From assembly GCA_009778715.1 (NCBI GenBank), contig WRFR01000003.1:1-64000 (forward strand): DNA of 64,000 bases. The letters are read 5' to 3'. A program made the position numbers and the translations under genes. Source of the DNA: Coriobacteriia bacterium. Lineage in GTDB: Bacteria; Actinomycetota; Coriobacteriia; WRKU01; WQUG01. Shown here piece by piece: positions 4,613 through 59,546 of the stretch (its first letter is position 1; every line of letters begins with the position of its first letter). The notes below the pieces were generated by a model. The model searched no databases. It was not told the origin of the DNA and saw only the letters and a program-made list of their open reading frames with translations.

Positions 4613-5923
4613 TCAACTGCCACCCGGAGCTGCAAACGACTCGACCGCGATCTCGCTCATGACCTCTTCGGCCGCCGTGATGGCATCCGCGATCTCAGCG
4701 CGTGTCATCGCGAGAGAAGCAAAACAGCATTCGAACTGGCTGGGCGCCAGCCAGAATCCACGATCAAGCATCTTACAGAAGTACTTCGCGTAACGTTCAG
4801 TATCGGCCAGCGCTGCCGTCTTCCAGTCCACAACGGGACCACGAGTAAAAAACAGACAGGTGAGCGCACCAACCTGCGTGCCAAAAGCGGGGATACCCGC
4901 AATGTCAGCTGCCTGTTGCAGGCCGCTGGCGAGCAATTCGCCCTTTTCTTCAAGCTCCTCATAGGTGCCAGAGCGACCCAGGACCTTCATCGTTGCGACG
5001 CCAGCCGCCATGGCGACCGGATTGCCCGAGAGCGTACCTGCCTGATAGACCGGCCCGACGGGAGCCAGGTGCTCCATGATCTCACGCTTGCCACCAAACG
5101 CACCGACCGGAAAACCGCCGCCAATGATCTTACCAAGCGTGGTCAGGTCAGCCGTGACACCGTAATGCTCCTGGGCGCCACCGTAGGCGACCCGAAATCC
5201 CGTGATAACTTCGTCAAAGATGAGCAACGCGCCATGCTCGTCACAGAGCGCACGCAAACCCTCAAGAAAACCAGGCTCTGGTGGCACGCAACCCATATTG
5301 CCCGCCACGGGCTCGACGATAAGCGCTGCGATCTGATCAGGATTGTCTGTAAATGCCGCCTCGACGGCCTCCAGGTCGTTGTAAGGAACCACGATCGTGT
5401 CGCGCGCGGCGCCTTCAGTCACGCCGAGCGTCGAAGGAATGCCGAGCGTCAGCAGGCCGGAGCCCGCCGCAACCAGCAGCGCATCGCTGTGGCCATGATA
5501 GTTGCCATCGAACTTGATGAACTTCTCGCGCCCGGTATAGCCACGCGCCAGACGAAGGGCTGACATGACAGCTTCGGTTCCCGAGCTGACAAAGCGTACC
5601 ATTTCGACCGAAGGAAACGCCGCGCAGACCAACTGGGCTGCCTCAGTCTCAAGTTCAGTTGGCGCGCCATAGGTCGTACCCAGTTCCAGTTGAGCGCGCA
5701 CCGCTTCCAGCACTTCAGGATGGCCATGGCCCAAGATCATCGGCCCCCAGGACTGGACGAAATCGAGATACGTCTTGCCCTCAACATCGGTGATGTGGGC
5801 GCCTTCTGCTTTTGCCACAAAGCGAGGTGTCATCCCTACGCTTTTGTAGGCACGCACCGGCGAGTCGACCCCACCGGGAATATAACGCTGGGCTTCAGCA
5901 AACAATTCAGATGATGTGGGCAT
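4613..5923 (-). CDS. hemL: Glutamate-1-semialdehyde 2,1-aminomutase
   Basis: 436 aa, full length. Class III aminotransferase fold with [16 protein letters not shown] near 113-128, GNYHGHSD near 140-147, the FDEVITGFR stretch at 236-244 and the PLP lysine K265 in [15 protein letters not shown]. It converts glutamate-1-semialdehyde to 5-aminolevulinate, the entry to tetrapyrrole synthesis by the C5 route, in the cytosol. ATG 5923 follows AAAAGGAGCCCCT. HemB and an AhbD-like enzyme lie about 9 kb away, so haem synthesis is scattered over this region. A TACAAT extended -10 element precedes it. Confidence 0.93.
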
Positions 5924-7049: not shown

Positions 7050-8348
7050 TTACTTCCCCAGCTTCGCCAGCGCTGCTTCCCCTTCTTTGGTCACTTCAAG
7101 TGAGTGATCAAGGCACTTGGTCGCCTCATAAGGATTATGGAGACCTTTGCTATTCTCATTCATGATGAAGTCAAGGAACCACTGCGCCTCACATTCCTGG
7201 GCGCGGATCGGATCTAGCTGCGTATCGGTGTATTTTCCGCTCTTGTTGGCGGCGGCCAGCTGATCTGTAAAGGTGGCCAGCGCATTGCCATCGGTGTTGA
7301 TCTTGGCAATATATTTCGCCTCGGAAGTCTTGATCAGGCTCACGATCGCCGCGTCTCCCCCGCCATGGCAACCCGAGCACACATCCTTGCGGATCTCCGC
7401 CGAATAAAGCGGGCCCGTCATCTTGTGGCTCGTAGCTCCGCTTGCCATTTTCTCCATGTGACAATCGGCACAGGTCAGGCCTGCCCGCCCATGGATGCTG
7501 CTGTCGTTTGCCACCATGTCATATTCCGGGTGTTGGGCTTTGAGCATCTTGGCGCCAGTATTAGGATTAATATGGTCGTAGTATCCGATCTTCTTGTAAT
7601 AGTCAAAGATATCAAAGGGATCCGTCAGCTCTTTGGGCATCGTCACCGCGCCGGTCTTCGGGTCGAAGTAGTACTCGTTATGGCACTGTCCGCAGGCAGC
7701 GTTGGCCGGTTGCATCTGACCGCCCTTGATCTCCTGGGCAAACGCCGTGGTAAACGCCTCCCGGATCGCTCCCAGATACGTCCCGTTGGCGGTCTGCTTG
7801 GTTCGTGACCCCGAGCCCGGATAGTTCTTGTGGCAGTCATAACAAGTGATGGTCTGTGTGATCTTGGATTCCTCAGTCGAGAAAGGAACCTGAGCGAGAT
7901 TCTGCCCGCTTTGCTCGATAAGGGTATATTGGGATGACTTGCAGGCAAAACATACCGAGTTGGACTTCGCACTGATGCGACCGCTCCCCTTGGCGTCAGT
8001 TAAGGCGTCAAGATGGGGGCGCGGCGTGTCGTAGGACTTCGCGAATGCGCTCCCCGCATAGATCGTGTTCAGGAAGGGAAATATCTTGAGATAGCTTTGC
8101 ACCGGTTGTAGCGGTTGCGTATCGGACTCGAACGTGCTGACCTGCTCAGGGAACTTCGACGCCCACTGCGCGGGCAGCTTGACATCGGCGAGCGATTTCG
8201 CGTCAACGAAGGTCTCCGGAGAGGTCGAAGCAACCGTTTGTGCGGTAGTCTTCGGCTTATTCCCGCCGCAGGCGCTGAGCGTCAGTATCCCAGCCGCTAC
8301 GAGCAAAGCGATCGCCCACAATGCCACGATGCGTAGCTTTTTCTTCAT
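7050..8348 (-). CDS. nrfA: Cytochrome c nitrite reductase (ammonia-forming), lipoprotein form
   Basis: 432 aa from ATG 8348 (GGAAGGG upstream); a longer reading to 8411 has no ribosome site. The lipoprotein signal ends LTLSACGG. Five haem sites: one CFACK, the lysine-ligated catalytic haem diagnostic of NrfA, and four CXXCH (CYDCH, CGQCH, CADCH, CSGCH). CGQCHNEYYF and KAQHPEYDM carry the Glu-Tyr and Lys-x-Gln-His that in known NrfA hold calcium and the active-site Tyr and His, so this is the calcium-type enzyme. It reduces nitrite to ammonium with six electrons outside the membrane. No nrfH quinol dehydrogenase is adjacent; the electron donor is unknown. hcp lies upstream on the same strand. 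Confidence 0.9.
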   Translation of the reverse strand: MKKKLRIVALWAIALLVAAGILTLSACGGNKPKTTAQTVASTSPETFVDAKSLADVKLPAQWASKFPEQVSTFESDTQPLQPVQSYLKIFPFLNTIYAGSAFAKSYDTPRPHLDALTDAKGSGRISAKSNSVCFACKSSQYTLIEQSGQNLAQVPFSTEESKITQTITCYDCHKNYPGSGSRTKQTANGTYLGAIREAFTTAFAQEIKGGQMQPANAACGQCHNEYYFDPKTGAVTMPKELTDPFDIFDYYKKIGYYDHINPNTGAKMLKAQHPEYDMVANDSSIHGRAGLTCADCHMEKMASGATSHKMTGPLYSAEIRKDVCSGCHGGGDAAIVSLIKTSEAKYIAKINTDGNALATFTDQLAAANKSGKYTDTQLDPIRAQECEAQWFLDFIMNENSKGLHNPYEATKCLDHSLEVTKEGEAALAKLGK

Positions 8349-8401
8349 GATCCCTTCCTTTCCATTGCAGGACCTCTCCTGTCTCCTGTTTACCCCGCCC
8401 G

Positions 8402-8433
8402 CATAAGGCATACCGGGATCGGTATGCCTTATG
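8402..8433 (-). other. Perfect 13-bp inverted repeat between hcp and nrfA
   Basis: CATAAGGCATACC and GGTATGCCTTATG flank a 6-nt loop; an outer CCCGC/GCGGG pairing extends it. No T-run follows on the minus strand, so it is more likely a processing or stability hairpin, an attenuator, or an operator than a simple terminator. Confidence 0.6.
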
Positions 8434-8445
8434 AGCGGGTAAGAG

Positions 8446-10017
8446 TTACGCTAACGCCCGTGCCAAATCCTCCTCCGGCGTCGAGATCGGTGCGATCCCG
8501 AAGTTCTCGACCAGGAAATTCAGAATATTTGGCGAGACAAACGCGGGCAGGCTTGGGCCTAAGATAATGTTCTTTATGCCCAGGTAGAGCAGCGTAAGCA
8601 GGATCGCGACCGCCTTCTGCTCGTACCAGGAGATGACGAGCGTCAGCGGCAGGTCGTTAACGCCGCACTCAAAGGCTTCAGAGAGCGCGACTGCCACCCG
8701 TATTGCCGAGTAGGCGTCATTGCACTGCCCCATGTCCATGAGGCGCGGCAGGCCGCCGATCTCGCCGAGATCCAGGTCATTGAAGCGATACTTGCCACAG
8801 GCAAGCGTCAGGACGACCGTATCGGCCGGGGTCTGCTTGACGAACTCAGTGTAATAGTTGCGACCCGGCTTGGCCCCGTCGCAGCCACCTACCAGGAAAA
8901 AGTGCTTGATCGCGCCGCTCTTGACCGCGCCCACGACCGTGTCTGCCACGCCGAGCACCGTGCCGTGGCCAAAGCCCGTGAGGAGCTTCGTGCCCCCGTT
9001 GATGCCGTGACCCTGATACGTCTCCTTGTAGCCACCCAACTCGCGCGCTTTGGCGATGACCGGAGAGAAGTCCTTATCCGCAGCGATGTGCGTCATGCCC
9101 GGATACTGCACAACCGCCGTGGTAAAGATGCGATCAGCATAGCTGTCGCGCACCGGCATGATGCAGTTGGTCGTGAAAAGTACCGGCGCAGGCAAATCGA
9201 CGAACTCTTTCTGTTGGTTCTGCCAGGCTGTTCCGAAGTGGCCTTTGAACTGCGGATACTTCTTCAACTCGGGATACGCATGAGCAGGGAGCATCTCGCC
9301 GTGGGTATAGACACTGACGCCGGTACCCTCGGTCTGCTCCAGCAGGAGCTTCAAGTCATGCAAGTCATGGCCGGAGATCACGATAAACGGCCCCGGCTCT
9401 ATCTGCATCGAAACCTCAGTCGGCTCCGGCGTGCCATAGGTCTCCGTATTGGCACGATCGAGCAGCTCCATCGTAGCGTAGTTGGCCTTGCCGGTCTCAA
9501 GCGCGAGCGGAAGCAGTTCGTCCTGAGTTGCAGTGCTGTTGCCCACTGCAGCTAAGCCCTTCGCGAAAAACGCCATGACCTCATCGTCTGTGTAGCCGAG
9601 CTCCAACGCATGGTAGGCATAAGCAGAAATTCCCCGCAATCCCAGGAGAATGAGCGTTTTAAGGGTCCTGATATCCTCGTTTTCCAGCCAGAGGTTGGGA
9701 AGGACAAAATCTGCTGGCGCCGGAAGCCCGCAGAGCTTGGTATACACATCATGCACGCGCTCAATGAGCTTCGTGATGCTGGCATCATCGAAGTTCACGT
9801 TCGTCACAGTGGTAAACAACCCCTCCAGGAACAGTCGATGGGTATCCGCGGTCGGTTGGGCCTTGCCGGACTCGATCGCCTGGGCCAGGGTGATCAGGGC
9901 GCCTGTCAGTTGATCCTGCAAAAGTGCAGTCGCAGGTTTCTTGCCACAGACACCCGACGTATCGCAGCCAGTACCGTGGGCGGTTTGCTCACATTGAAAA
10001 CAGAACATATCGGACAT
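8446..10017 (-). CDS. hcp: Hybrid cluster protein / hydroxylamine reductase
   Basis: 523 aa. N-terminal cysteines C6, C9, C18 and C24 (CFQC, then x8-C-x5-C) form the class I type Fe-S motif usual in anaerobes. Family blocks GHDLHDLKLLLEQT, FTTNCIMP, GGCDGAKPGRNYYTEF and TLACGKYRFND are present, the last two carrying ligands of the hybrid Fe-S-O cluster. The protein reduces NO to N2O (and hydroxylamine in vitro) in the cytosol, defending against nitrosative stress. ATG 10017 follows a good AGGGAG. It sits directly upstream of nrfA and divergent from a Crp/Fnr regulator, which supports a nitrite/NO response module. Confidence 0.95.
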   Translation of the reverse strand: MSDMFCFQCEQTAHGTGCDTSGVCGKKPATALLQDQLTGALITLAQAIESGKAQPTADTHRLFLEGLFTTVTNVNFDDASITKLIERVHDVYTKLCGLPAPADFVLPNLWLENEDIRTLKTLILLGLRGISAYAYHALELGYTDDEVMAFFAKGLAAVGNSTATQDELLPLALETGKANYATMELLDRANTETYGTPEPTEVSMQIEPGPFIVISGHDLHDLKLLLEQTEGTGVSVYTHGEMLPAHAYPELKKYPQFKGHFGTAWQNQQKEFVDLPAPVLFTTNCIMPVRDSYADRIFTTAVVQYPGMTHIAADKDFSPVIAKARELGGYKETYQGHGINGGTKLLTGFGHGTVLGVADTVVGAVKSGAIKHFFLVGGCDGAKPGRNYYTEFVKQTPADTVVLTLACGKYRFNDLDLGEIGGLPRLMDMGQCNDAYSAIRVAVALSEAFECGVNDLPLTLVISWYEQKAVAILLTLLYLGIKNIILGPSLPAFVSPNILNFLVENFGIAPISTPEEDLARALA

Positions 10018-10038
10018 TTCATACTCCCTTTCTTTTGG

Positions 10039-10054
10039 ACGATAGTTCTATCGT
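10039..10054. promoter_or_regulatory. Candidate operator for hcp: perfect 7-2-7 palindrome
   Basis: ACGATAG-TT-CTATCGT, 22 bp upstream of the hcp start and within the divergent region shared with the Crp/Fnr-type regulator gene. Size and symmetry fit a Crp/Fnr dimer, though the sequence differs from the FNR consensus. Binding by the neighbouring regulator is an inference. Confidence 0.5.
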
Positions 10055-10123
10055 AAACGCCATCCATCAAATTGTCTGTTGTTTTTCAAACAAAATGGGG
10101 CACAGATGCGTCATAATAGGGAT

Positions 10124-10801
10124 ATGACAAAAACTGAGAACTATCACTTACTGATCCAACTCTCTCCCCTGTTCCGCGGGATCACCTCAGAGGAACTTGA
10201 GACACTGTTCTCCTGCCTTGATGTGCGCCACCGCAACTGTCGCAAGGGGAGCTATATCTTTTCTGCCGGGCAACATATCACCGACATAGGACTGCTCCTC
10301 TCTGGCCAACTTGACATCCTGCAGGATGATATCTGGGGCAATCGGCGTATCCTTGAGCGCGTGGCTCCTGGGGAAATGTTCGGCGCTGCGTTCTCCTGCG
10401 CCGCAATCGAGCGGATCCCGATCAGCGTCAAGGCGACTCAGCCCTCCGAGGTGCTGCTCTTTGACTATCGCAAGATGGTCACCACGTGCAGCTCTGCCTG
10501 CGAGTTTCACACTCAGTTGATATCGAACATGCTTCAACTGCTCTCGCGTAAGAGCATCGCCATGATGGAGAAAATCGGGAATATCACGCGCCACAGCACG
10601 CGGGAAAAAGTTCTGTCATTTTTATCACAGCAAGCGCAGCTGTGCCAGACTCAGAGCTTTGATATAGCTTTTAATCGCCAGGAACTGGCTGAATACCTGG
10701 CGGTCGATCGGAGCGCGCTTTCCACTGAGCTTGGTCGTCTGCGAGATGAAGGGGTGCTGCGGTTCTCTAAGAACCACTTTGAGCTTCTGAATCAGGCATA
10801 A
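10124..10801 (+). CDS. Crp/Fnr-family transcriptional regulator (HcpR-like position)
   Basis: 225 aa from ATG 10124 (AGGGAT close upstream; upstream ATGs at 10079 and 10106 are poorer). Residues about 15-125 form a cyclic-nucleotide-binding-like sensor barrel (GSYIFSAGQHITDIGLLLSG). A long dimer helix follows, then a Crp winged helix at the end (NRQELAEYLAVDRSALSTEL is the recognition helix-turn-helix). There is no N-terminal cysteine cluster of the FNR type, so it is not an iron-sulphur FNR. Related regulators next to hcp control NO detoxification genes, and this one probably controls hcp and perhaps nrfA. Its last 35 bp overlap the convergent glycosyltransferase gene. Confidence 0.85.
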   Translation: MTKTENYHLLIQLSPLFRGITSEELETLFSCLDVRHRNCRKGSYIFSAGQHITDIGLLLSGQLDILQDDIWGNRRILERVAPGEMFGAAFSCAAIERIPISVKATQPSEVLLFDYRKMVTTCSSACEFHTQLISNMLQLLSRKSIAMMEKIGNITRHSTREKVLSFLSQQAQLCQTQSFDIAFNRQELAEYLAVDRSALSTELGRLRDEGVLRFSKNHFELLNQA

Positions 10802-11714: not shown

Positions 11715-13181
11715 TTAAGTACGCTCGAAATCGTCGGAGTAGCGGATGATGTCGTCCTCACCCAGGTAGTCGCCTACCTGTATCTCGATGATATGAAGGT
11801 CACTGGCGCCGCGATTCTCCAGGCGATGTTTCGTGCCGACGGGGTTATAGACCGACTGGCCTGTCTCGACCTGTATCTCCGTATTGCCCTGCGTGACAAG
11901 CGCGGTCCCTTCGACGACCACCCAGTGCTCGCTACGCCGCTCATGGCTTTGCAGTGACAGGCGTGAGTCCGGCGTCACGACGATCTCTTTGACTTTGAAG
12001 CCCACGCCCTCTTCAACGATTTTCCACGTACCCCAGGGCCGCGCGCTGACCTTTGGCTCACGCAACTCGGGCGCATCCTGCTTTGAGAGCGCATTGACGA
12101 CCAGACGCACATCCTGCGCCCGATCACGGGGCGCCACCAAGGTCGCATCACTCGTGTCGACCACCAGCAGGTCTTTGACGCCCAGGGTTGCGACGAGACG
12201 CTCCGGGCTGTAGATGAGCGTGCCCTGGCTCTCGACCGCTATCCCATCACCGATGATCCGGTTGCCTGACACGTCAGGTTCTGCCAGATCCTCCAATGAC
12301 AGGAGCGAGCCCACATCTGACCAGTCCATCGTTGTCGGTACGACCGCTACGTGCGTGCTGTGTTCGAGCGCCGCATTGTCGAAGCTCACCTTGGGTAGTG
12401 TCTCAAATAGTTGATAGCTGGCGGAACTCAGACGCTCGGCCTCCGGTAGCGCCGCGATCTGGCGCGCGACTTCAACGATCCGTTCGTTGCCCGCCGCCGC
12501 CTCGGCGCCGGTCCCTTGCGCAGCCTCAAGCTCAGCGAGGATCACGCGCGCCTTGGCCACGAGCATACCGGAGTTCCAATAGTAGTTGCCCGCCGCAACG
12601 TAGCGTTGCGCGGTGTCAGCGTCGGGTTTTTCGACAAAAGCCTCAACGGGGCACGCAGTACCAACGGCGCCAACCACTGCTTTGATATAGCCATAGCCGG
12701 TCTCAGGCCGCGTGGGCACCAGACCGATCGTCACCAGTTGGTCGGTAGTCGTGGCAGCTTCGATCGCCACCGTCATGGTGCCGCGCCACGCCTTGCCACT
12801 GTCAACAAGCTGGTCGCTCGGCAGCATCATCACGATGCCATCCGGATCGCGCGCTTCAATGGTCGCTGCTGCAAGCGCCAAAGCCGGCGCGGTGTTGCGT
12901 GGTACGGGCTCAACAAGATAGTTAAGCGCCACATCTGCCAGCTGAGGTTGCGCCAGTAGGTGATTACGGATCTCATCAAGCAGTGTCACCCCCACTACGA
13001 TATCGATTGAGGGGGCCTCTGTGCCGATTATCATACGCGCGCGTTCGATCGTGCCACAGATCAACGAAGTCTCCCCAAAGACCGAAAGCATCTGCTTAGG
13101 AGACAGTTCACGCGAGAGCGGCCAGAAGCGCGTGCCGCTCCCGCCCGCCAGTATGACCGCATACACCTTACTGTCCGGCAA
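11715..13181 (-). CDS. manC: Mannose-1-phosphate guanylyltransferase / mannose-6-phosphate isomerase
   Basis: 488 aa, the length of the two-domain enzyme. The N-terminal nucleotidyltransferase carries AVILAGGSGTRFWPLSRELSPKQ and the pattern FVEKPDADTA; the C-terminal cupin isomerase carries RPWGTWKIVEEG, KEIVVTPDSRLSLQSHERRSEHWVV (cut here for length) and YNPVGTKHRLEN. It makes GDP-mannose. TTG 13181 is the likely start: it has GAGGAA upstream and overlaps the end of the radical SAM gene by 14 bp, implying translational coupling. Together with gmd and fcl in this window it completes synthesis of GDP-L-fucose for the polysaccharide locus. Confidence 0.92.
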   Translation of the reverse strand: MPDSKVYAVILAGGSGTRFWPLSRELSPKQMLSVFGETSLICGTIERARMIIGTEAPSIDIVVGVTLLDEIRNHLLAQPQLADVALNYLVEPVPRNTAPALALAAATIEARDPDGIVMMLPSDQLVDSGKAWRGTMTVAIEAATTTDQLVTIGLVPTRPETGYGYIKAVVGAVGTACPVEAFVEKPDADTAQRYVAAGNYYWNSGMLVAKARVILAELEAAQGTGAEAAAGNERIVEVARQIAALPEAERLSSASYQLFETLPKVSFDNAALEHSTHVAVVPTTMDWSDVGSLLSLEDLAEPDVSGNRIIGDGIAVESQGTLIYSPERLVATLGVKDLLVVDTSDATLVAPRDRAQDVRLVVNALSKQDAPELREPKVSARPWGTWKIVEEGVGFKVKEIVVTPDSRLSLQSHERRSEHWVVVEGTALVTQGNTEIQVETGQSVYNPVGTKHRLENRGASDLHIIEIQVGDYLGEDDIIRYSDDFERT

Positions 13182-14619
13182 GAAGGGTTCCTCGTTCCTC
13201 TATTTCGCGTGCCCGAGCCTCAGCCTTCTCCTCGATGACCTTTGCATGCTCTGCCGCCATCTCGGGCGTCCAACTGGGTGGCACATAGGCGCAGTAGGGT
13301 TCCTCTTCCATGTAATCGCCCGTCAGCGCGAGCGCGCGGGCGCGGCAACCACCGCACACGCCCTTGTACTCGCAGGCGCCGCACTTGCCCTCCAGCTTGC
13401 TGTAATCACGCAGATCATTGAAGACCTTCGAGTTTGTCCAGATCTCCGAATAAGGCTGCTCCTTGACATTACCCAGCTGCTGGTCAAAGTAACCGCAGGG
13501 CTGCACGTCACCAATGTGCGAGATGAAGCTAAAGGTGATGCCGCCCAGACAGCCGCGCGTCATCGCGTCCATGCCGTACTCCTCACGCGTGACCTTTTTG
13601 CCCTCGGCCTTGGCAAGCTGGCGGATGATGCGATAGTAATGCGGACTGTCAGTCGGCTTGAAGTGGAGCGGCGAGGTCTTCTGGCGCTCATAGGCCCAGG
13701 TCAAAGCCTTTTCATAGCCCTCGGGCGGCAGCTCAAGGTCCTCGATCTCACTGCCACGCCCCGTGGGCACTAACATGAAGATATGGAAGGCGTCCACACC
13801 CAGGCGCTCGGCCAGGTCATGGATCTCGGGGAGTTGCTCCGCATTGAGCTTTGTGACAGTCGTGTTGATCTGCACGCCAACACCCGTGGCCTTTGCACGC
13901 TTGATGCCCTCGATCGAGGCGTCGAACGCCCCCGGCTGGCGGCGAAACGCATCGTGCTCTTCAGCGGTCGCGAAGTCGATCGAGACCGAGATGCGCGGAA
14001 TGCCATGCTCAGCCAGCTTATGCGCGATCTCGTCAGTAATAAGCGTAGCGTTCGTACCGACCACCGGCATACAGCCCTTAACGTGGGCGTAGTCAATGAT
14101 CTCCCAAATGTCAGGACGCATGAGCGGCTCGCCACCCGTCAGGATGATGATCGGATTGCTGATGGTCGCGATGTCGTCGATGACCGCCTTGCATTGATCG
14201 AGAGAGAGCTCGCCGGGATAATGGCCAAACTCCGCCGCCGCGCGGCAGTGTACGCATCCCAGATTGCAGCTACGCGTGATCTCCCAGGCGATGATGCGCG
14301 GGGCCTTGACGCCGGGATGAGCCTCCTGGTAAGCCTGAGCCGCCGGGCCGCCGCCCGGCATGAAGCCCATCGAACGCGCGCCTCCGTGACGCTGCCGCTC
14401 GCCTGGGTGACCGCCTGGATGACCCGCAGGTGGCATGCCGCTTGGGTGTCCACCGGGATGTCCACCCGGGTGACTGCCAGCTGTTACCGGCTTGCCTCCA
14501 GCCAACGGAATACCGACCCCGACGGTCTCGCAACCACCGGCGCCGGTCGCCATCGCCTCAGCTATCTCCTGCTCGTCGACCTCGTCGACCTGATCGAACC
14601 CTGCATCGAACTCTGACAT
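13168..14619 (-). CDS. ahbD: AhbD-like haem b synthase (radical SAM/SPASM) with His-Gly-Pro-rich N-terminus
   Basis: 483 aa. The radical SAM motif is C118-x3-C122-x2-C125 within AWEITRSCNLGCVHCRAAAE, and GGEP is at 162-165. The SPASM end has C357, C375, C413, C416, C422, C425 and C443 in the arrangement GKCGACEYKGVCGGCRARA, typical of AhbD, which decarboxylates Fe-coproporphyrin III to haem b in the sirohaem-dependent pathway. Residues 48-79 are an extra segment of repeated GGHPG/GHPSG units with eight histidines, absent from the core family; it might bind metal (inference). hemB is the upstream neighbour and manC overlaps downstream. Another SPASM peptide-modifying role is possible but less likely in this haem context. 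Confidence 0.8.
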   Translation of the reverse strand: MSEFDAGFDQVDEVDEQEIAEAMATGAGGCETVGVGIPLAGGKPVTAGSHPGGHPGGHPSGMPPAGHPGGHPGERQRHGGARSMGFMPGGGPAAQAYQEAHPGVKAPRIIAWEITRSCNLGCVHCRAAAEFGHYPGELSLDQCKAVIDDIATISNPIIILTGGEPLMRPDIWEIIDYAHVKGCMPVVGTNATLITDEIAHKLAEHGIPRISVSIDFATAEEHDAFRRQPGAFDASIEGIKRAKATGVGVQINTTVTKLNAEQLPEIHDLAERLGVDAFHIFMLVPTGRGSEIEDLELPPEGYEKALTWAYERQKTSPLHFKPTDSPHYYRIIRQLAKAEGKKVTREEYGMDAMTRGCLGGITFSFISHIGDVQPCGYFDQQLGNVKEQPYSEIWTNSKVFNDLRDYSKLEGKCGACEYKGVCGGCRARALALTGDYMEEEPYCAYVPPSWTPEMAAEHAKVIEEKAEARAREIEERGTLLAGQ

Positions 14620-14647
14620 TCTTGGCTCCGTTTCTTATTCACTTCTC

Positions 14648-14712
14648 TGTCATTGCGGCCTCCGAGCCGCAATCCCTGTAGCTGAGATCCTCAGGTCAAG
14701 CCCGGGATGACA
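14648..14712. repeat. REP-like palindromic intergenic element
   Basis: Bounded by TGTCAT and ATGACA (14648-14653 and 14707-14712), containing a perfect TTGCGGC-CTCCGA-GCCGCAA hairpin (14653-14672). A related hairpin with ATTCCGGC/GCCGGAAT arms and the same CTCCGA loop in reverse sits at 59285-59306. It fills the gap between hemB and ahbD. Confidence 0.65.
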
Positions 14713-14729
14713 AAGTACCTGACCCTTTG

Positions 14730-15740
14730 TCATCTCTTATACCCGGCAACGCCGGCGTGCGCGGCTTCCCTCATCCAACGCGCGGCGTCCTTCGCGTGAT
14801 ACGTGATGATCATATCGGCACCCGCGCGCTTAAATCCTGTCAGAAGTTCAAGCACAATGCGCTTCTCATCAATCCAGCCACGCTGAGCCGCCGCCTTGAC
14901 CATGGCGTACTCGCCGCTCACGTTGTAGACGCAGGTCGGCATCGCAAAGGCCTCCTTCACGCGCCAAACGATATCCTGAAACGCCAGCGCAGGCTTGACC
15001 ATGACGATGTCAGCGCTTTCCTCGATGTCGAGCTCAGTTTCACGCAGTGCCTCGTCGCCATTGGCAGGATCCATCTGGTACTGGCTACGGTCTCCAAACT
15101 GTGGCGCAGAGTCGGCGGCCTCGCGGAAGGGCCCATACCAAGCGCTGCAGAACTTGGCGGAGTAGGCCATGATCGGCACATTCTCGTAACCCTCGTGGTC
15201 AAGCGCCGAGCGGATCGCCGCCACACGCCCATCCATCATGTCGGAAGGCGCGACCATGTCAGCGCCAGCTGCCGCGTGGCTCACGGCCTCCTGCGCGAGC
15301 AGCTCGAGCGTGACATCGTTTAAGACATAGTTATTCTCGTCAAGCACGCCACAGTGCCCATGGTCTGTGTATTCACACAAGCACACATCCGTGATGACGT
15401 AGAAATCCGGATCATGCTTTTTGATCGCGCGAATGGCCTCCTGCACGATGCCATGCTCAGCATAGCCCTCACTGCCCACAGCGTCCTTGTGCTCTGGCAG
15501 CCCGAAGAGGATTACCGCGCCGATGCCAAGTCCCTTGAGTTCATCGATCTCAGCTGGCAACTGATCAAGTGAGATCTGGAACTGCCCTGGCATACTGCTG
15601 ACCTCGTCGCGCAGACCAACGCCGGGCTTGACGAAGAGCGGATAGATGAAATCCTTGGAACTCAGTGTGTTTTCCCGCACCATCGCACGAATGATAGGGT
15701 TCAGGCGCAGACGACGCGGACGATATTCAGGATACTGCAT
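14730..15740 (-). CDS. hemB: Porphobilinogen synthase (5-aminolevulinate dehydratase)
   Basis: 336 aa from ATG 15740 (AAGGA upstream; a GTG at 15749 is in frame but sits on the ribosome site). Zinc-type cysteine motif [14 protein letters not shown]; Schiff-base lysines in [18 protein letters not shown] and MVKPAL; GGADMV-equivalent block [15 protein letters not shown]. It condenses two 5-aminolevulinates to porphobilinogen. A perfect TATAAT lies 45 bp upstream. It precedes ahbD on the same strand, separated by a palindromic element. Confidence 0.95.
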
Positions 15741-15784
15741 GACGGTCACTTCCTTGTGCGAGTAGATGTACTGACAATATATCC

Positions 15785-15840: not shown

Positions 15841-17769
15841 TTACTGCTTGCCAGAATTCGTCTGGACACTGGCGAGGTAATCCGCGATCGGAGGATAAAG
15901 CTCCGCGGCGGTTTTGCCGTTGAAGAACGGGCGCTTGACCTCGGCTGTTGCCCGCTGAATAGCGGGCGCAGATCCGCTGACCACCGCCAGATGTAATTGC
16001 TCGCCCAGTAATGCGGGCGTCACCGGGCCTGTGCTGGCAGCTTGATGAAGCAGCGTGGTAACTGCTGAAAAGTTCGCTGTGTCAGAAGTCTGAAGTGATT
16101 GCATCTGACTTAGTGCGTACTGGGCAAATTGAGTGAAGTTAGGCGTGAAGCCAGTGATATATCCCGGAGCCGTCTGCACAGCCTGGATCTGCTGATTGAG
16201 TTCTTGCTGGTTCGTCGAGAGGAGCAAGCGCATCTGAAGGAGGTAGCACTTGACCATCGGATCGCCCGATGCGGCCTGGTCAACGGACTCCAGCAGGGAA
16301 AGCCCCTGAGCGTCAGCTCCGCCGATGACGATTCCTGGCACGCGCGCCAGCGCGTACTGCTGGCGTGAGAAGAAGACTGCCAGCACCACAAGCGCTATAC
16401 AGCCAGCTACACGCGCAACGACCTTGGCTGCCGAGGGTAAGGCCAGCGCGTCCATCCCTGTCGCCTCCGGGCGCGCGCAGGCAAGGCCCGCCAAAGCCGC
16501 CCCTAACAGGCCACTGGCAAAATGCATCGGCGTCACAAAGAGCGAGAACAGCCAGGCCAGTGCCGCGATCATGCAAGCCGCACGCAGGTCAACGATACTC
16601 CCGGAAGGTCTGTCGCCTGAGGATGAAGTGTTTTCCTTTTTCTTGTGGCCAAACGTCAGGCCAGCTCCCCCTGCCGTGTCCCGCAACCAGAACCACCCGG
16701 CCGCAAGCAGCGCAAGCAGCCCGATCAGGCCCAGCCGTGTCATGATCTCCCAAGGAAGGCTATGAGGCGAGGGCGGGCTATACGCGAGAGGTTCCGTCCC
16801 GATCGTGGCAGTATTCCCATAGATCCAGGAACCAAGGTAGCGATATACGTTGAATCGAAAACCCGCCGGCCCAGAACCCGTCAGAGGCCGGGCAGCGGTC
16901 AAGGCCTCGGAGGCATAAGAGAACTCAATACGAGAGCGGATATTCTCGGAAGTCAGACTCGGCAGATCAGAACGCTTGACGACCAGTCCGCTCACCTGCG
17001 GCAGGAGCGCCGCAACTAACGCCAGGACCAGCAGACCGAGCGCAATGCGCCCACCTATCTGCACACCCTTGCAGAAGCGTCCCTCAGGCAGACCGAAGAG
17101 TTGGGGCCGCACCGCCGCGATCAACAACACTAACGCTCCAACTGAAAAGATTCCCAGCATTCCGTAGCTGATCGCCATGATCGCGACTGCGGCAGCCAAC
17201 GCCGCCACGAACCAAAGGATCACCGGCGCCCGTTTCGCAGCCGTGACCTGACCTGCTCTTCGCATCCCTCTCAAGTCCATCGTTGCAAGCCACAGGGCAA
17301 GCACAGGGATCGGGATAAACGCCGACACATTGTAGGCAGAAGAACCGAACACGTTGACCCAGGGAGTGAAAAAACGCTGATAGAAAGCAACCGCCAATAA
17401 CAGGAGCCCCACCACAGTAACTACACGCAGGGCTGTGCGCACCCAGCGACCCAGGCCAAGGCTTGCCGCCAGTAAGAAAATGGCAGGATAACACAACCAG
17501 AGATAACCTGGCATCTCCCCATACAGGTCATAAAGGAACTGCTGGACGGGAAAGGCGTTGGTCACCAGAGCAAGCAGGAAAGCCGCAGTCACCAGTCCTG
17601 CCGCCAAAACTGCCCCTTTAGCAGGCCGCCGCATCGGCAGCAGCTTTGCACAAGCGAGAGCTGCACAGACCAAGGTCGCCAAGAAAAAACATAGTTGGGC
17701 TTTCTCTACTGTGGGGATCTTGACGATGAGCCAGGCTCCTGGCGCCAAAAACGCAGCCAGCAAGAACAC
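15841..17769 (-). CDS. O-antigen ligase/polymerase-like integral membrane protein
   Basis: About 642 aa from GTG 17769; the frame stays open further upstream but into the cytochrome gene, and no ATG with a ribosome site lies in the gap, so the start is uncertain. Ten or more hydrophobic helices fill residues 1 to about 440. A Wzy_C-like segment is visible: NIRSRIEFSYASEALTAA, PLTGSGPAGFRF, SPPSPHSLPWEIMTRLGLIG. The C-terminal 170 residues are soluble and helical (TPR-like by feel), ending NSGKQ. Such proteins join or polymerise lipid-linked glycans at the outer face. Last gene after the multihaem cytochromes; whether it glycosylates them or serves the sugar locus is unknown. Confidence 0.65.
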   Translation of the reverse strand: MFLLAAFLAPGAWLIVKIPTVEKAQLCFFLATLVCAALACAKLLPMRRPAKGAVLAAGLVTAAFLLALVTNAFPVQQFLYDLYGEMPGYLWLCYPAIFLLAASLGLGRWVRTALRVVTVVGLLLLAVAFYQRFFTPWVNVFGSSAYNVSAFIPIPVLALWLATMDLRGMRRAGQVTAAKRAPVILWFVAALAAAVAIMAISYGMLGIFSVGALVLLIAAVRPQLFGLPEGRFCKGVQIGGRIALGLLVLALVAALLPQVSGLVVKRSDLPSLTSENIRSRIEFSYASEALTAARPLTGSGPAGFRFNVYRYLGSWIYGNTATIGTEPLAYSPPSPHSLPWEIMTRLGLIGLLALLAAGWFWLRDTAGGAGLTFGHKKKENTSSSGDRPSGSIVDLRAACMIAALAWLFSLFVTPMHFASGLLGAALAGLACARPEATGMDALALPSAAKVVARVAGCIALVVLAVFFSRQQYALARVPGIVIGGADAQGLSLLESVDQAASGDPMVKCYLLQMRLLLSTNQQELNQQIQAVQTAPGYITGFTPNFTQFAQYALSQMQSLQTSDTANFSAVTTLLHQAASTGPVTPALLGEQLHLAVVSGSAPAIQRATAEVKRPFFNGKTAAELYPPIADYLASVQTNSGKQ

Positions 17770-17836
17770 GGTCGTCGTTATGGTATGAAGCAGACTCCCG
17801 GAATCTGACTGAGTCGTTGACGCTAAGGCCTGAGCG

Positions 17837-19006
17837 CTAATTCTGGAAATCCCACTTTCCGGTCGTCGGATCCTGCGTATGGCACTCGGTACAAGGCTGG
17901 GCGCCACCGGAAGCTTCTCCGCCTGTCGTATCTTTTGTGTTATGGCAGCGGAAGCACAATGCCAAACCATAGCGGCTAACTGCAGCTGGATGGGTCTGAG
18001 TGAAGTCGCTTGGATGCGGCAGGCGCAATCCATGACAGGCGTCGCAACGCGAGGCGTCAGCTGCGTGGCAGGTATAACACTGGGTCTTTGGATCCGCGGT
18101 GATCAGAGCGTCTGCATTATCGGGCGAAGACCCAGAAGAGGTCATCGTGACCTGCGGAGTATTCATGTGGCAGGTAGCGCACGCATCAGAAGCGTCAGTG
18201 CCGTTATGGCAGATCAGGCAAGTGTTCATCGTGCCGCGCGAAGTAGCGGGACTTTGCGCCGTGGTCATGTTGTGGCAACGGCTGCACTGCATGCCCGCGT
18301 TCAGGGGCTCGGTATGCGACACCGCGATAACATTGCTCCCGCGATTGGTCGACAGAACTTGCTGTGAGATGTTCTTCTTGTGGCAGTTCAGGCAGGCAGA
18401 AGAAGGTACCGTTTGATAGCCCGTTGGATGGCTGTTGGCAGAAAAGCCCGTTACCAGATGCCCGATACGCTGGAAGCTGTTGACGGTATAGCGCGCGAAC
18501 GTGCCTCCGCTCTCGTGGCACTGCGCACAGCTCATGTTCTTATGGCTGCCGGACTGCATGACCGCAATTTTCTTATCATTGCCATGGCAGGCTTTGCAGA
18601 ACATCGACGTCGAGGTCCCTGCTCCGACACTTAACAACACAAGGAACGCTCCGACAATGATGACCAGTACGGTGTAATAACGCTTCCAAGACTTTCGATA
18701 CGCGCTCACTGCCTCGGCCTTCACACTCTGGGGAGAGATCTCGACCGTCTCTTTGCCTGTTTTCTTATCGACTAAGGCATAACGTTCCTGGCGGGAGGTC
18801 ACCGCTGATATGATCATGACCACCGTGAGCACCAGGATCAACACGATCACCAGGATGACCGCGATGACCATCAAAAACATCACAGGATTGAGCCGGGGAT
18901 TATTAAATACCGCTACGATCTGGGACCAGCGCTGATGAATGTCTGCTATCGTGAAGCTGTTGATCGCCTGGCGCCACCATGAGATCGAGAAGAGGTCCTT
19001 CCACAT
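17837..19006 (-). CDS. Membrane-anchored decahaem cytochrome c
   Basis: 389 aa. ATG 19006 shares one base with the upstream stop (TAATG). Two transmembrane helices (about 42-70 and 110-130) flank a charged cytosolic loop; the second leads straight into the first haem site. Ten CXXCH motifs start at C137, C160, C205, C241, C263, C276, C310, C321, C351 and C372. This places about 260 residues of haem domain outside the membrane. Role: electron transfer, probably from quinol or from the dodecahaem partner to an external acceptor (inference). I do not recognise a named family. Confidence 0.85.
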   Translation of the reverse strand: MWKDLFSISWWRQAINSFTIADIHQRWSQIVAVFNNPRLNPVMFLMVIAVILVIVLILVLTVVMIISAVTSRQERYALVDKKTGKETVEISPQSVKAEAVSAYRKSWKRYYTVLVIIVGAFLVLLSVGAGTSTSMFCKACHGNDKKIAVMQSGSHKNMSCAQCHESGGTFARYTVNSFQRIGHLVTGFSANSHPTGYQTVPSSACLNCHKKNISQQVLSTNRGSNVIAVSHTEPLNAGMQCSRCHNMTTAQSPATSRGTMNTCLICHNGTDASDACATCHMNTPQVTMTSSGSSPDNADALITADPKTQCYTCHAADASRCDACHGLRLPHPSDFTQTHPAAVSRYGLALCFRCHNTKDTTGGEASGGAQPCTECHTQDPTTGKWDFQN

Positions 19007-20010
19007 TAGAGTCCCGCACCTCCTGGATGTACATGCGCTGCATGGCAGTTGTCGCAATCGGATTTGGCATGGCAGTTATAGCAGGTCGCCTCGCCAACTT
19101 TTTTCGTCTCTGCGATGTGCGTAGTAAGGAAGTTGGCCGGGTGGGGCATCGGCAGGCCATGGCAATTATCACAGAACTTCTGGTCTGTGTGGCAGGTGTA
19201 ACACTTCTGCCGTGCTGCCGGGTTCGCTGCAACCTTTCCGTGAGTTTGCACGATATAGATATCATGGGGCACCAACGCGCCGTGACAACGGGCGCAGTCG
19301 GACTGGGGGTGGCAGCTCGTGCAAGTACTGAGATCGCCTGCGCCATGCATCTTCTGCCAGTTAACGCCGTGCGTGGTAGAGAAAGTCGAAAGTGTGAACT
19401 TCGAAGCTGCCTGCGCAGCATTCTGCGTGCCTCCTACGTGGCACTTAGCGCAATTACTGGAATCTGTCTGATTCTCATTGTGACAGGCGACGCAGGCGCC
19501 CATGCTGTACGAAACCGGGATCTGAGTACTGAGCAGGTGCCCGGTACCTCCGTGGCAGTCCGTACACTGCTGGCCTTTCGTGCAAGGAACATGCGCAATC
19601 TGCAAGCCCTTTGCGGTGACCATCCCGTTGCTGCCAGTTCCGATCGTATCGGCCTTATGGCACTGCGAACAACTTTCGTTCGAAACGCTCGCCTGTACGG
19701 ACGAAACCGGGAAAATCTTCAAGACCATCCCGTACATGACCGTCTGCCGGAATGCAAACCGCTGTGCAGTCGTGGCCCCTTTATGACACGACTCGCAGGT
19801 CACCCGGTTGTGAGGTCCTTCGTTTTGTGCTTTTGTTTCAGCGGCATGGCAACTGGTGCATCCAGGGGTATAGACCGTTGCCACAACAGCAGGGAGTATG
19901 GCCACCACAGCGATGACCACTACTACTAATGTTACGATCTTGAGCGCAAGCAGTTTGCGCCGAGGCTTGTCCGCCACCACAGCTTTTTGCGGTCGTGTCG
20001 GTTCGCTCAT
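19006..20010 (-). CDS. Membrane-anchored dodecahaem cytochrome c with NapC/NrfH-like N-terminus
   Basis: 334 aa. One N-terminal transmembrane helix (about 22-46) is followed at once by CTSCH. Twelve CXXCH motifs start at C51, C72, C114, C149, C173, C187, C230, C239, C270, C280, C310 and C319. The first part (GCTSCH, HNRVTCESCHKG, QTVMYGMVLKIFP) resembles quinol-oxidising NapC/NrfH proteins, which suggests entry of electrons from menaquinol. The end is a CDNCHAAHVHPGG tail. Translationally coupled to the decahaem gene, 42 bp after the NHL gene. Could be a nitrite- or metal-reduction conduit; substrate unknown. Confidence 0.85.
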   Translation of the reverse strand: MSEPTRPQKAVVADKPRRKLLALKIVTLVVVVIAVVAILPAVVATVYTPGCTSCHAAETKAQNEGPHNRVTCESCHKGATTAQRFAFRQTVMYGMVLKIFPVSSVQASVSNESCSQCHKADTIGTGSNGMVTAKGLQIAHVPCTKGQQCTDCHGGTGHLLSTQIPVSYSMGACVACHNENQTDSSNCAKCHVGGTQNAAQAASKFTLSTFSTTHGVNWQKMHGAGDLSTCTSCHPQSDCARCHGALVPHDIYIVQTHGKVAANPAARQKCYTCHTDQKFCDNCHGLPMPHPANFLTTHIAETKKVGEATCYNCHAKSDCDNCHAAHVHPGGAGL

Positions 20011-20052
20011 GCCTTTCCTTCCTCCGTCAACCTGTACCAGGTTCGAAAATCC

Positions 20053-21318
20053 TTATGATTCCAATTCTACAACATCTTTGCCCGCATTCCTGCGTCGACG
20101 CATCAAAATACGGGAGATGATATAGGCCGCGATAAGCAAAATGATTATCAACAGAGGGATCCAGCAAGCATTGAGAATATCACTGTAGCGACTGAGCAAG
20201 CTTCTCAGCCCGGAATTACTCGAGCCCTGCAAGCGGAATATCTGCACACGGCCCAAGGCCGCCTCACTCTCAACAAAGACGTCCTGTTGGCGGTTATAGC
20301 TGATGTCAGATGGATTCGAGAAAAAGCCATCCTGAACGCCATACTCCCCCCACTTACCCAGGAACTTCCCATTGGATTGTGAGAACGCCGCCACACTGTA
20401 ATCGAACATGTCGATGACGAGGATGCGGTTGTTCGCATCAAGGGTCACACCCATCGGGACCTGCATGTTGGCCGGGAACTTGGCTACCAGATCCTTCTGG
20501 GGGATCTCGGCGCCACCCCTGATGCCAGAGTTGCCCGGCTGCCCGGTATTGACCACCCAGACCCTGTCACCCTTCGCGTCATACTTGCTCAACCGGTTGT
20601 TATAGGTGTCGACCACATAAACATTGTTGTTCGAGTCGAGCACTACGCCAGATACGACATCGAAGTCATCCGGGCCATTGCCCCACCTGCCGACCTGACC
20701 AATCAAGGTCCCGTCGCGCTTGAACGCGGCAAAACCTCCGCGGCTGCCCACAACAAACATCGTCGAATTGGCAGTGACCGACATCGGTAGCTCGACCTGA
20801 AGAGTCTGCTTAAGATGAAAACCCGGGTCGAAGACCAATACCGTATTGTAAGTCTGTTGAGCAACATAGACCCAGCCATCAGGCGCCACTGTGACACGGC
20901 TCGGGTACTGGAAACCCTTACCCTCGGCGCTCTTGGTGACCAGTCGGCGGAAACTTCCGTTCATGTTGTATTCGATCAGGCGGAAATTCGACGCATCAGA
21001 GACCCAGAACGACTGCCCATCAGGGGCGACCGCAACGCTGGTCGGATGCATCAACTGGGATGGTTGGATCCCGAAGCCATAGACCGAGCGAATCCATTCG
21101 ATCCCTTTGACGTTACCGCCCTGCGCGCCTGCGCCGGGACGAAGCAGCGACCACAGCGTGCCGCATGCCGCCAACAACAGGATGATCAACACGACCAATA
21201 TGATGGCGAGTAGCCGCCGCGTACGACGCGTGCCTTGCTCCCCGTCGCCCTCGGGCAATACCTGAACTGCGGAAGTAGCAGGGGCGTCAGCCATTTTGGT
21301 ATCCGGTTCCTGTGCCAT
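20053..21318 (-). CDS. NHL-repeat beta-propeller protein anchored at both ends
   Basis: 421 aa. N-terminal transmembrane helix at about 35-58, C-terminal helix at about 385-408 followed by MRRRR. Between them are six NHL-type blades (VAPDGQSFWVSDASNFRL, VAPDGWVYVAQQTYNTVL, LDSNNNVYVVDTYNNRLSKY, LDANNRILVIDMFDYSVAAF and others). The propeller should lie outside the membrane. NHL proteins often accompany extracellular multihaem cytochromes, where they may act in assembly. Its ATG directly follows the TPR gene's stop with no spacer, so the two are coupled. Confidence 0.8.
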   Translation of the reverse strand: MAQEPDTKMADAPATSAVQVLPEGDGEQGTRRTRRLLAIILVVLIILLLAACGTLWSLLRPGAGAQGGNVKGIEWIRSVYGFGIQPSQLMHPTSVAVAPDGQSFWVSDASNFRLIEYNMNGSFRRLVTKSAEGKGFQYPSRVTVAPDGWVYVAQQTYNTVLVFDPGFHLKQTLQVELPMSVTANSTMFVVGSRGGFAAFKRDGTLIGQVGRWGNGPDDFDVVSGVVLDSNNNVYVVDTYNNRLSKYDAKGDRVWVVNTGQPGNSGIRGGAEIPQKDLVAKFPANMQVPMGVTLDANNRILVIDMFDYSVAAFSQSNGKFLGKWGEYGVQDGFFSNPSDISYNRQQDVFVESEAALGRVQIFRLQGSSNSGLRSLLSRYSDILNACWIPLLIIILLIAAYIISRILMRRRRNAGKDVVELES

Positions 21319-22137
21319 TTAATTACCCTCAGCTTTCTTGAGTCCAGCGTTTGCAGCAACCGCATTCGCATCGCCTGGTGACGTAAATCTCAACGCGTTC
21401 TGGAAGTCTTGTTTTGCCTTATCTTTCTGTCCAAGTCCAAGATAGGCATTGCCGCGGTCTATCATGGCCGACGCATCGGTCGGCTTACCACCCAACCAGA
21501 TGGTCAGGTACTTCACCACGTTGTTCCAGTCCTTCTCTTTCTGGAAGATATCCGAGAGCAGAGAGGCGCTGTTATAGTAATTATCGGGCAGGCCGAAGGC
21601 GACCGCCCAGTTCGTATCGCCACCCTTGGCCTTCTCGTCTTCATAATTCTTCTTCAGGGTAGCCATGACCTGCTGATACAGCTTGATCGCGTCAGCCGTC
21701 CGCCCACTGTTCTGATAGATGTAGGCCTGGCTATAGTTGATCATCTCATTCTGAGTCAAGTCAAAATTCTGGCGCTTGGCCTGCGCAAGGGTCACCTGGG
21801 CGCCCGGGATATCACCGTCATCGACTTGGGTAAAAATCAGCTCGGTGTAGCCCGTTGCATCCTTGTCTGTCGTCACGCTCGCTTTCGCGTTTTGCAACAA
21901 CGCCTGGTTGAGCGTCGCGGGAGGTGCTGGCCCCAGATTGACTGCGCCATTTATGACAGCAAGTATGGCTGCCAGAAGAGCGCCAATAATGACGAGAGCG
22001 ATCCCAAACACAAGGCCTGTTGCGACAGGATCGTGCCAGATGGAAGTACGCCTGCGCTTGCTTGGACGCTTACGCGGCTTACCTGAGTTGGCAGAGATAT
22101 CCTTATCAGTAATCTCCACCACGGACGTATCAGGCAT
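21319..22137 (-). CDS. Membrane-anchored TPR protein, first gene of the cytochrome operon
   Basis: 272 aa. A basic cytosolic N-terminus (KPRKRPSKRRR), one transmembrane helix at about 38-65, then helical repeats of TPR type: AQAYIYQNSGRTADAIKLYQQ, SLLSDIFQKEKDWNNVVKYL and DRGNAYLGLGQKDKAKQDFQNAL. Likely a scaffold for the complex encoded downstream. ATG 22137 follows AAAGGAGC. An extended -10 box lies about 60 bp upstream and no gene on this strand reads into it, so it is probably the operon's first gene. Confidence 0.75.
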   Translation of the reverse strand: MPDTSVVEITDKDISANSGKPRKRPSKRRRTSIWHDPVATGLVFGIALVIIGALLAAILAVINGAVNLGPAPPATLNQALLQNAKASVTTDKDATGYTELIFTQVDDGDIPGAQVTLAQAKRQNFDLTQNEMINYSQAYIYQNSGRTADAIKLYQQVMATLKKNYEDEKAKGGDTNWAVAFGLPDNYYNSASLLSDIFQKEKDWNNVVKYLTIWLGGKPTDASAMIDRGNAYLGLGQKDKAKQDFQNALRFTSPGDANAVAANAGLKKAEGN

Positions 22138-52074: not shown

Positions 52075-54200
52075 ATGTCAAAGCTCACGGATTTGATCGG
52101 GAGAGTAGCGCAGAAAGATCCTGCGCTTGCAGAGGAGTTGCGCAAGGAGTTCGCGGTCTATGCGAACCGGCGTGTCTTTGGTTTGAACTTTGAGCGGCAC
52201 ATGCCCGAAACTGTAAGACTTTATGATCGTCCGATCCGTCGCGGTGACAAGGTGAATATCCTCCCAGCACGAGGTGAAAAAGAGAAAGTTGAAAACAAGC
52301 GGATCTGGCTCGTCAAGTCGATTTTAGAAAAAGCTGAGGGTACGTTTGCCACGCTTGCGCCCGTCGGCGCAAATTTTGACCAGGAAGAGCCCCCCCCCCT
52401 CAGATTTCCGTTAATGATCTGGTAACTGTCGCTGCATTTTCAGAGCCAATCTACCCCGGCCTGCAGGAGACCGGGCGGGTTGAGCGTGGTGGGAATAAAC
52501 CTTACCAGGTGATCATCAATGGCGAGAACTTTCATGCCCTCGAAACGCTTCTCTATGCTTACGAAGGCAAGGTTGACTGCATCTATATTGACCCACCCTA
52601 TAACAAAGGGGCCAAAGATTGGAAGTACAATAACGACTTTGTTGACAGCGAGGATGCGTATCGCCATTCAAAATGGCTTGCATTTATTGAGCGACGGCTT
52701 AGGTTAGCAAAACGCCTGCTAAATCCGGAGAATTCAGTCTTGATAGTAACGATTGACGAAACGGAGTATCTGAGGCTTGGGCTTTTACTTGAACAAATTT
52801 TTACAAACGCGCAAATCCAAATGATAAGTTCTGTAATCAACCCGAGCGGTGCAAAAAGAGCCGGCTTGTTTTCGCGTTCTGATGAATACATTTTTATGGT
52901 TGTACTTGGTGCTGAAACCGTACAGTACTTTGCTGAGGGCGGAGACCCGAAGGAGAAGCGCTGGTGGTACCTGAGAAGAACTGACCTTTCTTCACGACGA
53001 GGCACAAAAAAGGGTGGCGTGCGCCAGTTTTATCCAATCTATGTCTCGCCTTTAACAAATAGGATAGTACATATCGGGGAAGCTCTTGCGCCGGGTGTTG
53101 ATCGGAGTAGTGTGCCAAGAGTAGAGGGTGCAGTGCCAGTCTTCCCTGTCAGAGAAGATGGGATAGAAATGAACTGGGGTTTAACAGCCCCGTCATTACA
53201 AAGACTATATGATTACGGCTTCGTGCGTGTGTCTCCTGGACATGATTACCAACCCTACATCTTCAAATATCTTTCTGAGGAGACGGTCGAGAAAGTTGAG
53301 AGTGGTGAGCTCTCAGTTATCGGCTCTCGTGAAGATGGATCCAAAATTGTTGTGTCTGATGAGGGGAAAATAATTAGGCCAACAACAGCTTGGAGTGTGT
53401 CCAGTCATGATGCCGGGCAATATGGAACCAGCCTATTGGGCGCGTTGATTCCCGGCCGCCGTTTTCCGTTTCCAAAATCGCTCTATGCGGTCGAGGACGC
53501 ATTACGGTATTTTATCGGGAAGAAACCTAGCGCGCTCATTGTTGATTTCTTCTCAGGTTCAGGAACGACTGCGCACGCAGTCATGCGGCTTAACCATCAT
53601 GACGGGGGACAACGCAGGTGCATCTGCATCACGAATAATGAAGTTTCAGCAGGGGAGCAAGAGATATTTCTCAAACAGATGCTTCGACCAAGTGATGATG
53701 AATGGAAAGCACTTGGCATCTGCGACTATATTACCAAGCCGCGTATCACTGCTGCCATTACTGGCAAAACACCAGAAGGCAATGATATCAAAGGTGACTA
53801 TTTGTTTACTGACGAGTTCTCAATGGTGGAAGGCTTCGAGGAGAACGCGATCTTCTATAACCTAACCTATCAGGATGAACTCAGCGTTGAGCTTGATCGC
53901 GCATTTGCTGAGATCGCTCCATTACTTTGGATGCGTGCTGGTTCGCAAGGCCGCTGCATTTCTGAACGCAAGGCAGACTTCGATATTGCTAAGAACTATG
54001 GCATTCTCTTTGACTACCATGCCGCCAACGCATTTCTTTCAGCATTGAGTAATAGCGCCGGCGTAAAGATAGCTTACATCGTCACTAACCAGGACTCCCG
54101 CTTTCAGGACATCGCTCAGAAGCTTCCAGAGGGCATCAAGTCGATCAGACTTTACGAGTCCTATATCCGTTCCTTCAAGATCAACCAGGGAGAGGCCTAG
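52075..54200 (+). pseudogene. mod: Type III DNA methyltransferase (Mod), frameshifted at a poly-C tract (possibly phase-variable)
   Basis: Two frames make one gene. The first (52075-52425) begins MSKLTDLIGRVAQKDPALAEE with AAGGAGAG upstream and covers the conserved Mod N-terminus; it stops soon after the C-tract. The second, in the +1 frame, continues QISVNDLVTVAAFSEPIYPGL, then RVERGGNKPYQVIINGENFHALE and the methyltransferase core. Motif IV is IYIDPPYNKGAKDW and motif I follows much later as VDFFSGSGTTAHAVM, i.e. a beta-class N6-adenine enzyme; the recognition domain lies between. With 10 C's the gene is off; 11 or 8 C's restore about 708 aa. An internal ATG at 52509 could make a shorter product. 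res follows by 5 bp. Confidence 0.85.
52390..52399 (+). repeat. Homopolymer tract of ten C in mod
   Basis: Ten C's between GAAGAG and TCAGATT, exactly where the reading frame of mod changes. In this state the frame ends 26 bp later at a TAA. Confidence 0.9.
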
Positions 54201-54205
54201 ATCAT

Positions 54206-57258: not shown

Positions 57259-57312
57259 AAATCGCAATCTCCTACCACGCATCAAACTTGCCTGAAATCA
57301 TTATCGTCTAAG

Positions 57313-59265: not shown

Positions 59266-59284
59266 GAGTATGCCTCCTTCCTAG

Positions 59285-59369: not shown

Positions 59370-59382
59370 ATGTGGGTGCGGT

Positions 59383-59462: not shown

Positions 59463-59546
59463 GAACATTTCCCGGAGTCTGCGCTGCTGGGGATTCCACC
59501 GTCCGAAAAGGGGCAGCGCCCGCCTCCGGCGCGTCCCGCTCTCTTG

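Follow-up and report, generated by a model that had tools for sequence, protein, structure and literature searches.

The operon at positions 15841-22137 of the window, the 64,000-nucleotide stretch of DNA that was analysed, probably serves on the membrane side of an extracellular electron-transfer system, as a module that charges exported cytochromes and provides a scaffold for them. The basis for this reading is gene content, synteny across the class Coriobacteriia, co-occurrence, folds and protein families. Electrons, we infer, come from the quinol pool and would enter two NrfH-like membrane-anchored cytochromes, here called cytA and cytB. Their 22 haems could carry the electrons across the Gram-positive wall zone and pass them to secreted cytochromes with six or seven haems. 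These in turn would carry them to an extracellular partner, or from one in organisms that take up electrons. Docking or assembly of the exported cytochromes, which in this genome would be supplied from two other contigs (C11 and C5), is most likely the role of the TPR and NHL proteins, both membrane-anchored. The fifth protein has a predicted WaaL fold and probably acts outside the membrane, transferring a lipid-linked glycan onto a component of the system or another surface acceptor.

The operon and its surroundings

The five genes of the original prediction (TPR, NHL, 12-haem cytochrome, 10-haem cytochrome and a ligase-like protein) are all present in the open reading frame listing of the window, head to tail on the minus strand. 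Transmembrane (TM) segments are predicted.

21319..22137, minus strand: TPR protein, 272 aa; one N-terminal TM segment; Pfam TPR_2 2.5e-09
20053..21318, minus strand: NHL beta-propeller protein, 421 aa; two TM segments, one near each end (N and C); PF01436 4.2e-16
19006..20010, minus strand: cytA, cytochrome with 12 CXXCH motifs, 334 aa; one N-terminal TM segment; NrfH-like N-terminal region
17837..19006, minus strand: cytB, cytochrome with 10 CXXCH motifs, 389 aa; two N-terminal TM segments; NrfH-like region
15841..17844, minus strand: membrane protein with a predicted O-antigen-ligase fold and a C-terminal TPR domain; start approximate

The 22 CXXCH motifs of the two cytochromes are far more than occur in shuffled sequences. 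The 12 motifs of cytA compare with a shuffle mean of 0.12 and a maximum of 2, and the 10 motifs of cytB with a mean of 0.03 and a maximum of 1. The start and stop contacts described earlier for the first four genes hold for the TPR and NHL genes, where the stop abuts the ATG, and for cytA and cytB, which overlap in TAATG, but the NHL gene and cytA are separated by 42 bp. The TPR protein has a syntenic homologue in a genome of the same genus, with 66% identity. For the ligase-like gene, the listed ATG (18033), about 197 bp within cytB, is an unlikely start. Homologues of this gene begin directly past the cytB stop, which places the start near 17.76-17.84 kb at a non-ATG codon. At the operon, no promoter or terminator signal rose above shuffled background.

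The host genome is 1.73 Mb in 48 contigs, and several other features of the window were observed. Haem biosynthesis genes are found near the operon (4613-5923 and 13168-15749). They encode HemL (assigned by translation), HemB and an AhbD-like radical SAM protein, which falls just under the NCBIfam cut-off (498.3 vs 500 bits) and hints at the sirohaem route. The HemB/AhbD neighbourhood is not repeated beside the cassette in the genome of the same genus. A surface protein at 38972-41611 has SpaA and T-Q ester domains and an LPxTG-like end (VPSTG). The region at 52509-63985 is probably mobile, with type III-like restriction genes, a MobA-type relaxase, an AbiEi/AbiEii pair and a phage-type integrase.

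A class-wide cassette and its probable secreted partner

The operon is a form of a cassette that recurs in Coriobacteriia in the order TPR, NHL, secreted hexahaem cytochrome, cytA, cytB and, in some cases, the ligase-like gene. After removal of duplicates there were 65 distinct cytA neighbourhoods, and 49 had enough flanking sequence for gene content to be scored. Among these 49, the NHL gene is present in 47, cytB lies directly 3' of cytA in 46, a secreted-type cytochrome with four to eight haems is found in 44, and a TPR protein or a single-TM protein of similar size in 42. The synteny search proposed with the original prediction thus shows that the set is kept, with NHL, the secreted hexahaem cytochrome and cytB all present in 41 of the 49. 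An extracellular conduit calls for anchored cytochromes encoded with a secreted one; these 41 cassettes have that arrangement, while in the genome of the window the two are unlinked. The ligase-like gene is found in six of the 49. Across 59 related genomes, counting the genome of the window, NHL homologues are present in 35 (E <= 1e-10) and cytA homologues in 34. In the same-genus genome G002, one locus (L031) has two tandem cassettes and, after them, genes for two secreted cytochromes, one with 6 haem motifs and one with 7. Related cytochrome loci L098, L131 and L105 have very large neighbouring open reading frames, with about 52, 43 and 30 haem-type motifs each.

The distribution of the secreted hexahaem family suggests that it is the natural partner of cytA and cytB. 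Both cytA and the family occur in 34 of the 59 genomes, cytA alone in none, the family alone in one and neither in 24. The family is therefore present in 34/34 cytA carriers and 1/25 of the other genomes. The Fisher p-value of 1e-15 overstates independence because the genomes are related, but the contrast with NrfA, which shows no association with cytA over the same 59 genomes (p 1.0), stands.

This contrast bears on an alternative reading, in which the operon is an anaerobic relay that involves no extracellular transfer: its cytochromes would pass electrons to a reductase, soluble or in the membrane, such as the NrfA encoded 10 kb away. In its favour, the window encodes NrfA (PF02335 2.4e-67) and Hcp at 7050-10017 with no NrfH gene next to NrfA, and cytA and cytB resemble NrfH. 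However, the distribution of NrfA is independent of that of the cassette, and what does track the cassette is the gene for a secreted hexahaem protein lacking CXXCK. The haem numbers of cytA and cytB are also far above that of NrfH. A relay of this kind is highly improbable. The original prediction had named a soluble acceptor such as nitrite as the finding that would overturn it, and the link between NrfA and the cassette was rejected. The NrfA of the window has five haems including CXXCK; its gene and that of Hcp are both on the minus strand and neighbour a Crp/Fnr-type regulator (7050-10801). A second NrfA is found on contig C40 of the same genome.

The window operon has no hexahaem gene between NHL and cytA, and the same is true of the first cassette of the same-genus relative. 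The genome of the window instead has three 7-haem homologues on other contigs (C11:21850-23256, C11:29523-30977 and C5:32904-34403). Both of the genes on C11 adjoin a second TPR-NHL locus, which is without cytA and cytB. The exported cytochrome lies outside the window operon, so its partnership with cytA and cytB in this genome is drawn from the relatives. The NHL protein of the second locus (C11:16165-30989; L054, L055) has a proline-rich N-terminal stretch with an Extensin-like match.

Members of the hexahaem family have a signal-like N-terminus and six invariant haem motifs, some of them CX4CH; those nearest the window have a seventh. Six further histidines are invariant (H87, H104, H165, H179, H310 and H377 in the first aligned sequence), the number expected if six haems have bis-His ligation. 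One invariant histidine lies just upstream of the first haem motif.

The preferred reading, a membrane module that serves exported cytochromes, can be extended by supposing that the secreted hexahaem proteins polymerise into filaments, in principle as OmcS and OmcE do, with the TPR and NHL proteins as the assembly machinery. OmcS and OmcE of Geobacter are likewise secreted multihaem cytochromes, a likeness that concerns the unlinked partner family, and OmcS is a hexahaem protein with a bis-His pattern, as in that family. The six haems with their six further histidines would fit this extension. So would a locus of Geoalkalibacter ferrihydriticus (Ga0056053_02426-31) in which genes for two NHL proteins and a putative quinol cytochrome accompany an OmcE homologue (PMC12016550). 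Against it, sequence searches relate the hexahaem family to none of the filament cytochromes in the PDB. Searches with single proteins (phmmer) gave no PDB match, and the family profile gave weak matches to other cytochromes and none to a filament cytochrome at E <= 10. An AlphaFold2 model of the heptahaem partner protein was too poor for fold comparison (pLDDT 43.8). Filament formation is hypothetical here and on balance unlikely.

The anchored cytochromes and the ligase-like protein

The anchored cytochromes resemble NrfH, but they are much larger in haem content. Profiles built from 32 cytA and 29 cytB sequences were searched against the PDB with hmmsearch, and NrfH (2J7A) was the best match of both (E 5.5e-12 for cytA and 1.7e-12 for cytB). 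The cytB protein also matches TIGR03153 (1e-7). Both have an N-terminal TM helix before the first haem followed by a four-haem NrfH region, as in the NrfH/NapC quinol dehydrogenases, which have 4 haems compared with 12 in cytA and 10 in cytB. The methionine that serves haem 1 in NrfH, just after the first CXXCH, is not conserved, and its position is variable in the 32 cytA and 29 cytB sequences. The earlier claim of NapC/NrfH-like N-termini that accept electrons from quinol is thus borne out for the family relationship, while quinol oxidation by cytA and cytB is put forward as an inference since the methionine is not kept. For cytochrome assembly, the genome has three Cytochrom_C_asm matches (CcsA-type proteins), and ResB was not found in it.

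The last gene encodes a protein whose predicted fold matches WaaL. It had been described as Wzy_C-like, and this holds for the fold but not for the sequence, as the Wzy_C score of 22.7 bits is below the Pfam cut-off of 31.7. There was no match to PglL_A (PF15864) up to E 0.1, none of the sequence profile to the PDB, and none below 0.001 with Foldseek alone. The AlphaFold2 model, made from seven sequences, has a pLDDT of 73. When it was compared with VIA-align, WaaL (7TPG) ranked first with Z 18.4 over 357/403 residues (rmsd 5.4), and the next rows were at Z 11 or below (RodA 10.5, FtsW 10.0). Residues ~490-667 of the model match TPR proteins, a C-terminal domain added to the fold of the WaaL/PglL glycan transferases. 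The periplasmic His motif H-S-x9-G-xx-G, which it has in common with these transferases, is kept in 7/7 homologues. WaaL and PglL have R215, R288 and H338 in common (E. coli WaaL numbering; PMC3643930), and the invariant R305, R330 and H361 of the ligase-like protein are candidate equivalents.

The WaaL-fold gene may have come along with the neighbouring polysaccharide cluster (22-47 kb), as a passenger unlinked to the cytochromes. This is a real possibility, although its chances appear somewhat below even. A cluster of glycosyltransferase and sugar-nucleotide genes is directly upstream of the operon, and the low frequency of the gene, six of 49 cassettes, is in keeping with a passenger. On the other hand, about 10 of the 65 distinct cassettes, counting those with short flanks, have this divergent gene immediately after cytB, and they come from at least four families. 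Furthermore, G002 has a separate canonical Wzy_C (71 bits) upstream in its glycan cluster. PglL genes often adjoin the genes of their protein targets (PMC3643930), and by analogy a cytochrome-linked acceptor is plausible for the ligase-like protein. Ser and Thr make up 19.2% of the hexahaem proteins in cassettes that have the ligase gene and 18.0% in those that lack it, a difference so small that it gives no hint of glycosylation of those proteins. A more complete scheme can be drawn in which this is a class-wide Gram-positive operon for secreted polymeric cytochrome wires: TPR and NHL would assemble the wires, cytA and cytB would charge them, and the WaaL-fold-TPR enzyme would O-glycosylate them in some lineages. 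The scheme as a whole is very doubtful.

Electrode expression and known systems

One cassette can be linked to gene expression on an electrode. On a thermophilic biocathode, strain EMTCatB1 was the dominant organism. Under closed circuit one of its multihaem genes, 1d0125, ranked within the top 10% of transcripts; this gene is not named in the differentially expressed cluster (PMC7943316). Genes in the first 400 kb of EMTCatB1 were counted per strand with a simple gene finder, so that the mapping is by ordinal and not by accession. Direct-strand ordinals 31-37 are V-ATPase subunits and 43 is GroES, in agreement with 1d0031-37 and the chaperone 1d0043 of the paper (PMC7943316). Ordinal 125 falls on the NHL gene and 126 on the hexahaem gene (BDLO01000001.1:148093-149187); cytA and cytB come next and were skipped by the finder. 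In the first 312 kb there is no multihaem open reading frame on either strand besides those of the cassette. The agreement in ordinals and the lack of other multihaem genes indicate that 1d0125 corresponds to a cytochrome gene of the cassette, with the hexahaem gene as the most likely candidate.

The cytochromes of EMTCatB1 were proposed to function in electron uptake (PMC7943316), and the module could mainly take up electrons from extracellular donors. The direction of electron flow cannot be read from sequence, but most carriers of the cassette are not known cathode organisms, and a main role in uptake seems distinctly unlikely. The original prediction of a Gram-positive route from menaquinol to the cell surface gains from the tie to secreted multihaem cytochromes and from the probable expression of a cassette gene in electrode-grown EMTCatB1, and it needs revision in that the likely exported carrier is encoded elsewhere.

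The presence of the cassette does not appear to track reduction of Fe(III) oxides. Ferrihydrite is reduced by Parvivirga hydrogeniphila but not by Anaerosoma tenue; their published assemblies are 1,840,996 bp in 9 contigs and 2,107,022 bp in 6 contigs, respectively (PMC9686372). Two genomes that fit these species in size and contig number (G017 and G024) both have the cassette. If they have been identified correctly, the cassette is not sufficient for reduction of metal oxides.

Similar gene clusters have been described in other organisms. In the Anaerosomatales, a cluster found in both isolates (MCK8115470-72 and MCL4078710-12) encodes two putative quinol-oxidising multihaem cytochromes and an MtrA homologue (PMC9686372). 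It is probably part of this cassette; the description mentions no NHL, TPR or ligase-like genes and no class-wide synteny. In the Gram-positive Dethiobacter alkaliphilus, clusters with several multihaem cytochromes and a putative quinol-oxidising cytochrome also contain genes for NHL- and TPR-repeat proteins, and several of the cytochromes are upregulated on ferrihydrite (PMC10376724). The likeness is one of description, and in the passages covered neither the fixed TPR-NHL-hexahaem-cytA-cytB order nor a ligase-like gene is described. The Geoalkalibacter locus is likened to the cassette by gene content; it is from a Gram-negative organism and has an MtoA-type cytochrome (PMC12016550). NHL proteins are also found near possible outer-surface cytochromes in Desulfovibrio ferrophilus (PMC9769857). 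The fixed six-gene arrangement, the class-wide co-occurrence and the ligase-fold member were not found in the literature searched, which covered few subscription papers.

The passage of electrons through the Gram-positive wall is poorly known. The recurring gene set in Coriobacteriia names a likely membrane base, scaffold and secreted carrier, and one cassette is linked to expression on a cathode. For work in cultured Anaerosomatales, the cassette provides a short list of genes with which it can be tested whether NHL and TPR proteins serve in cytochrome assembly.
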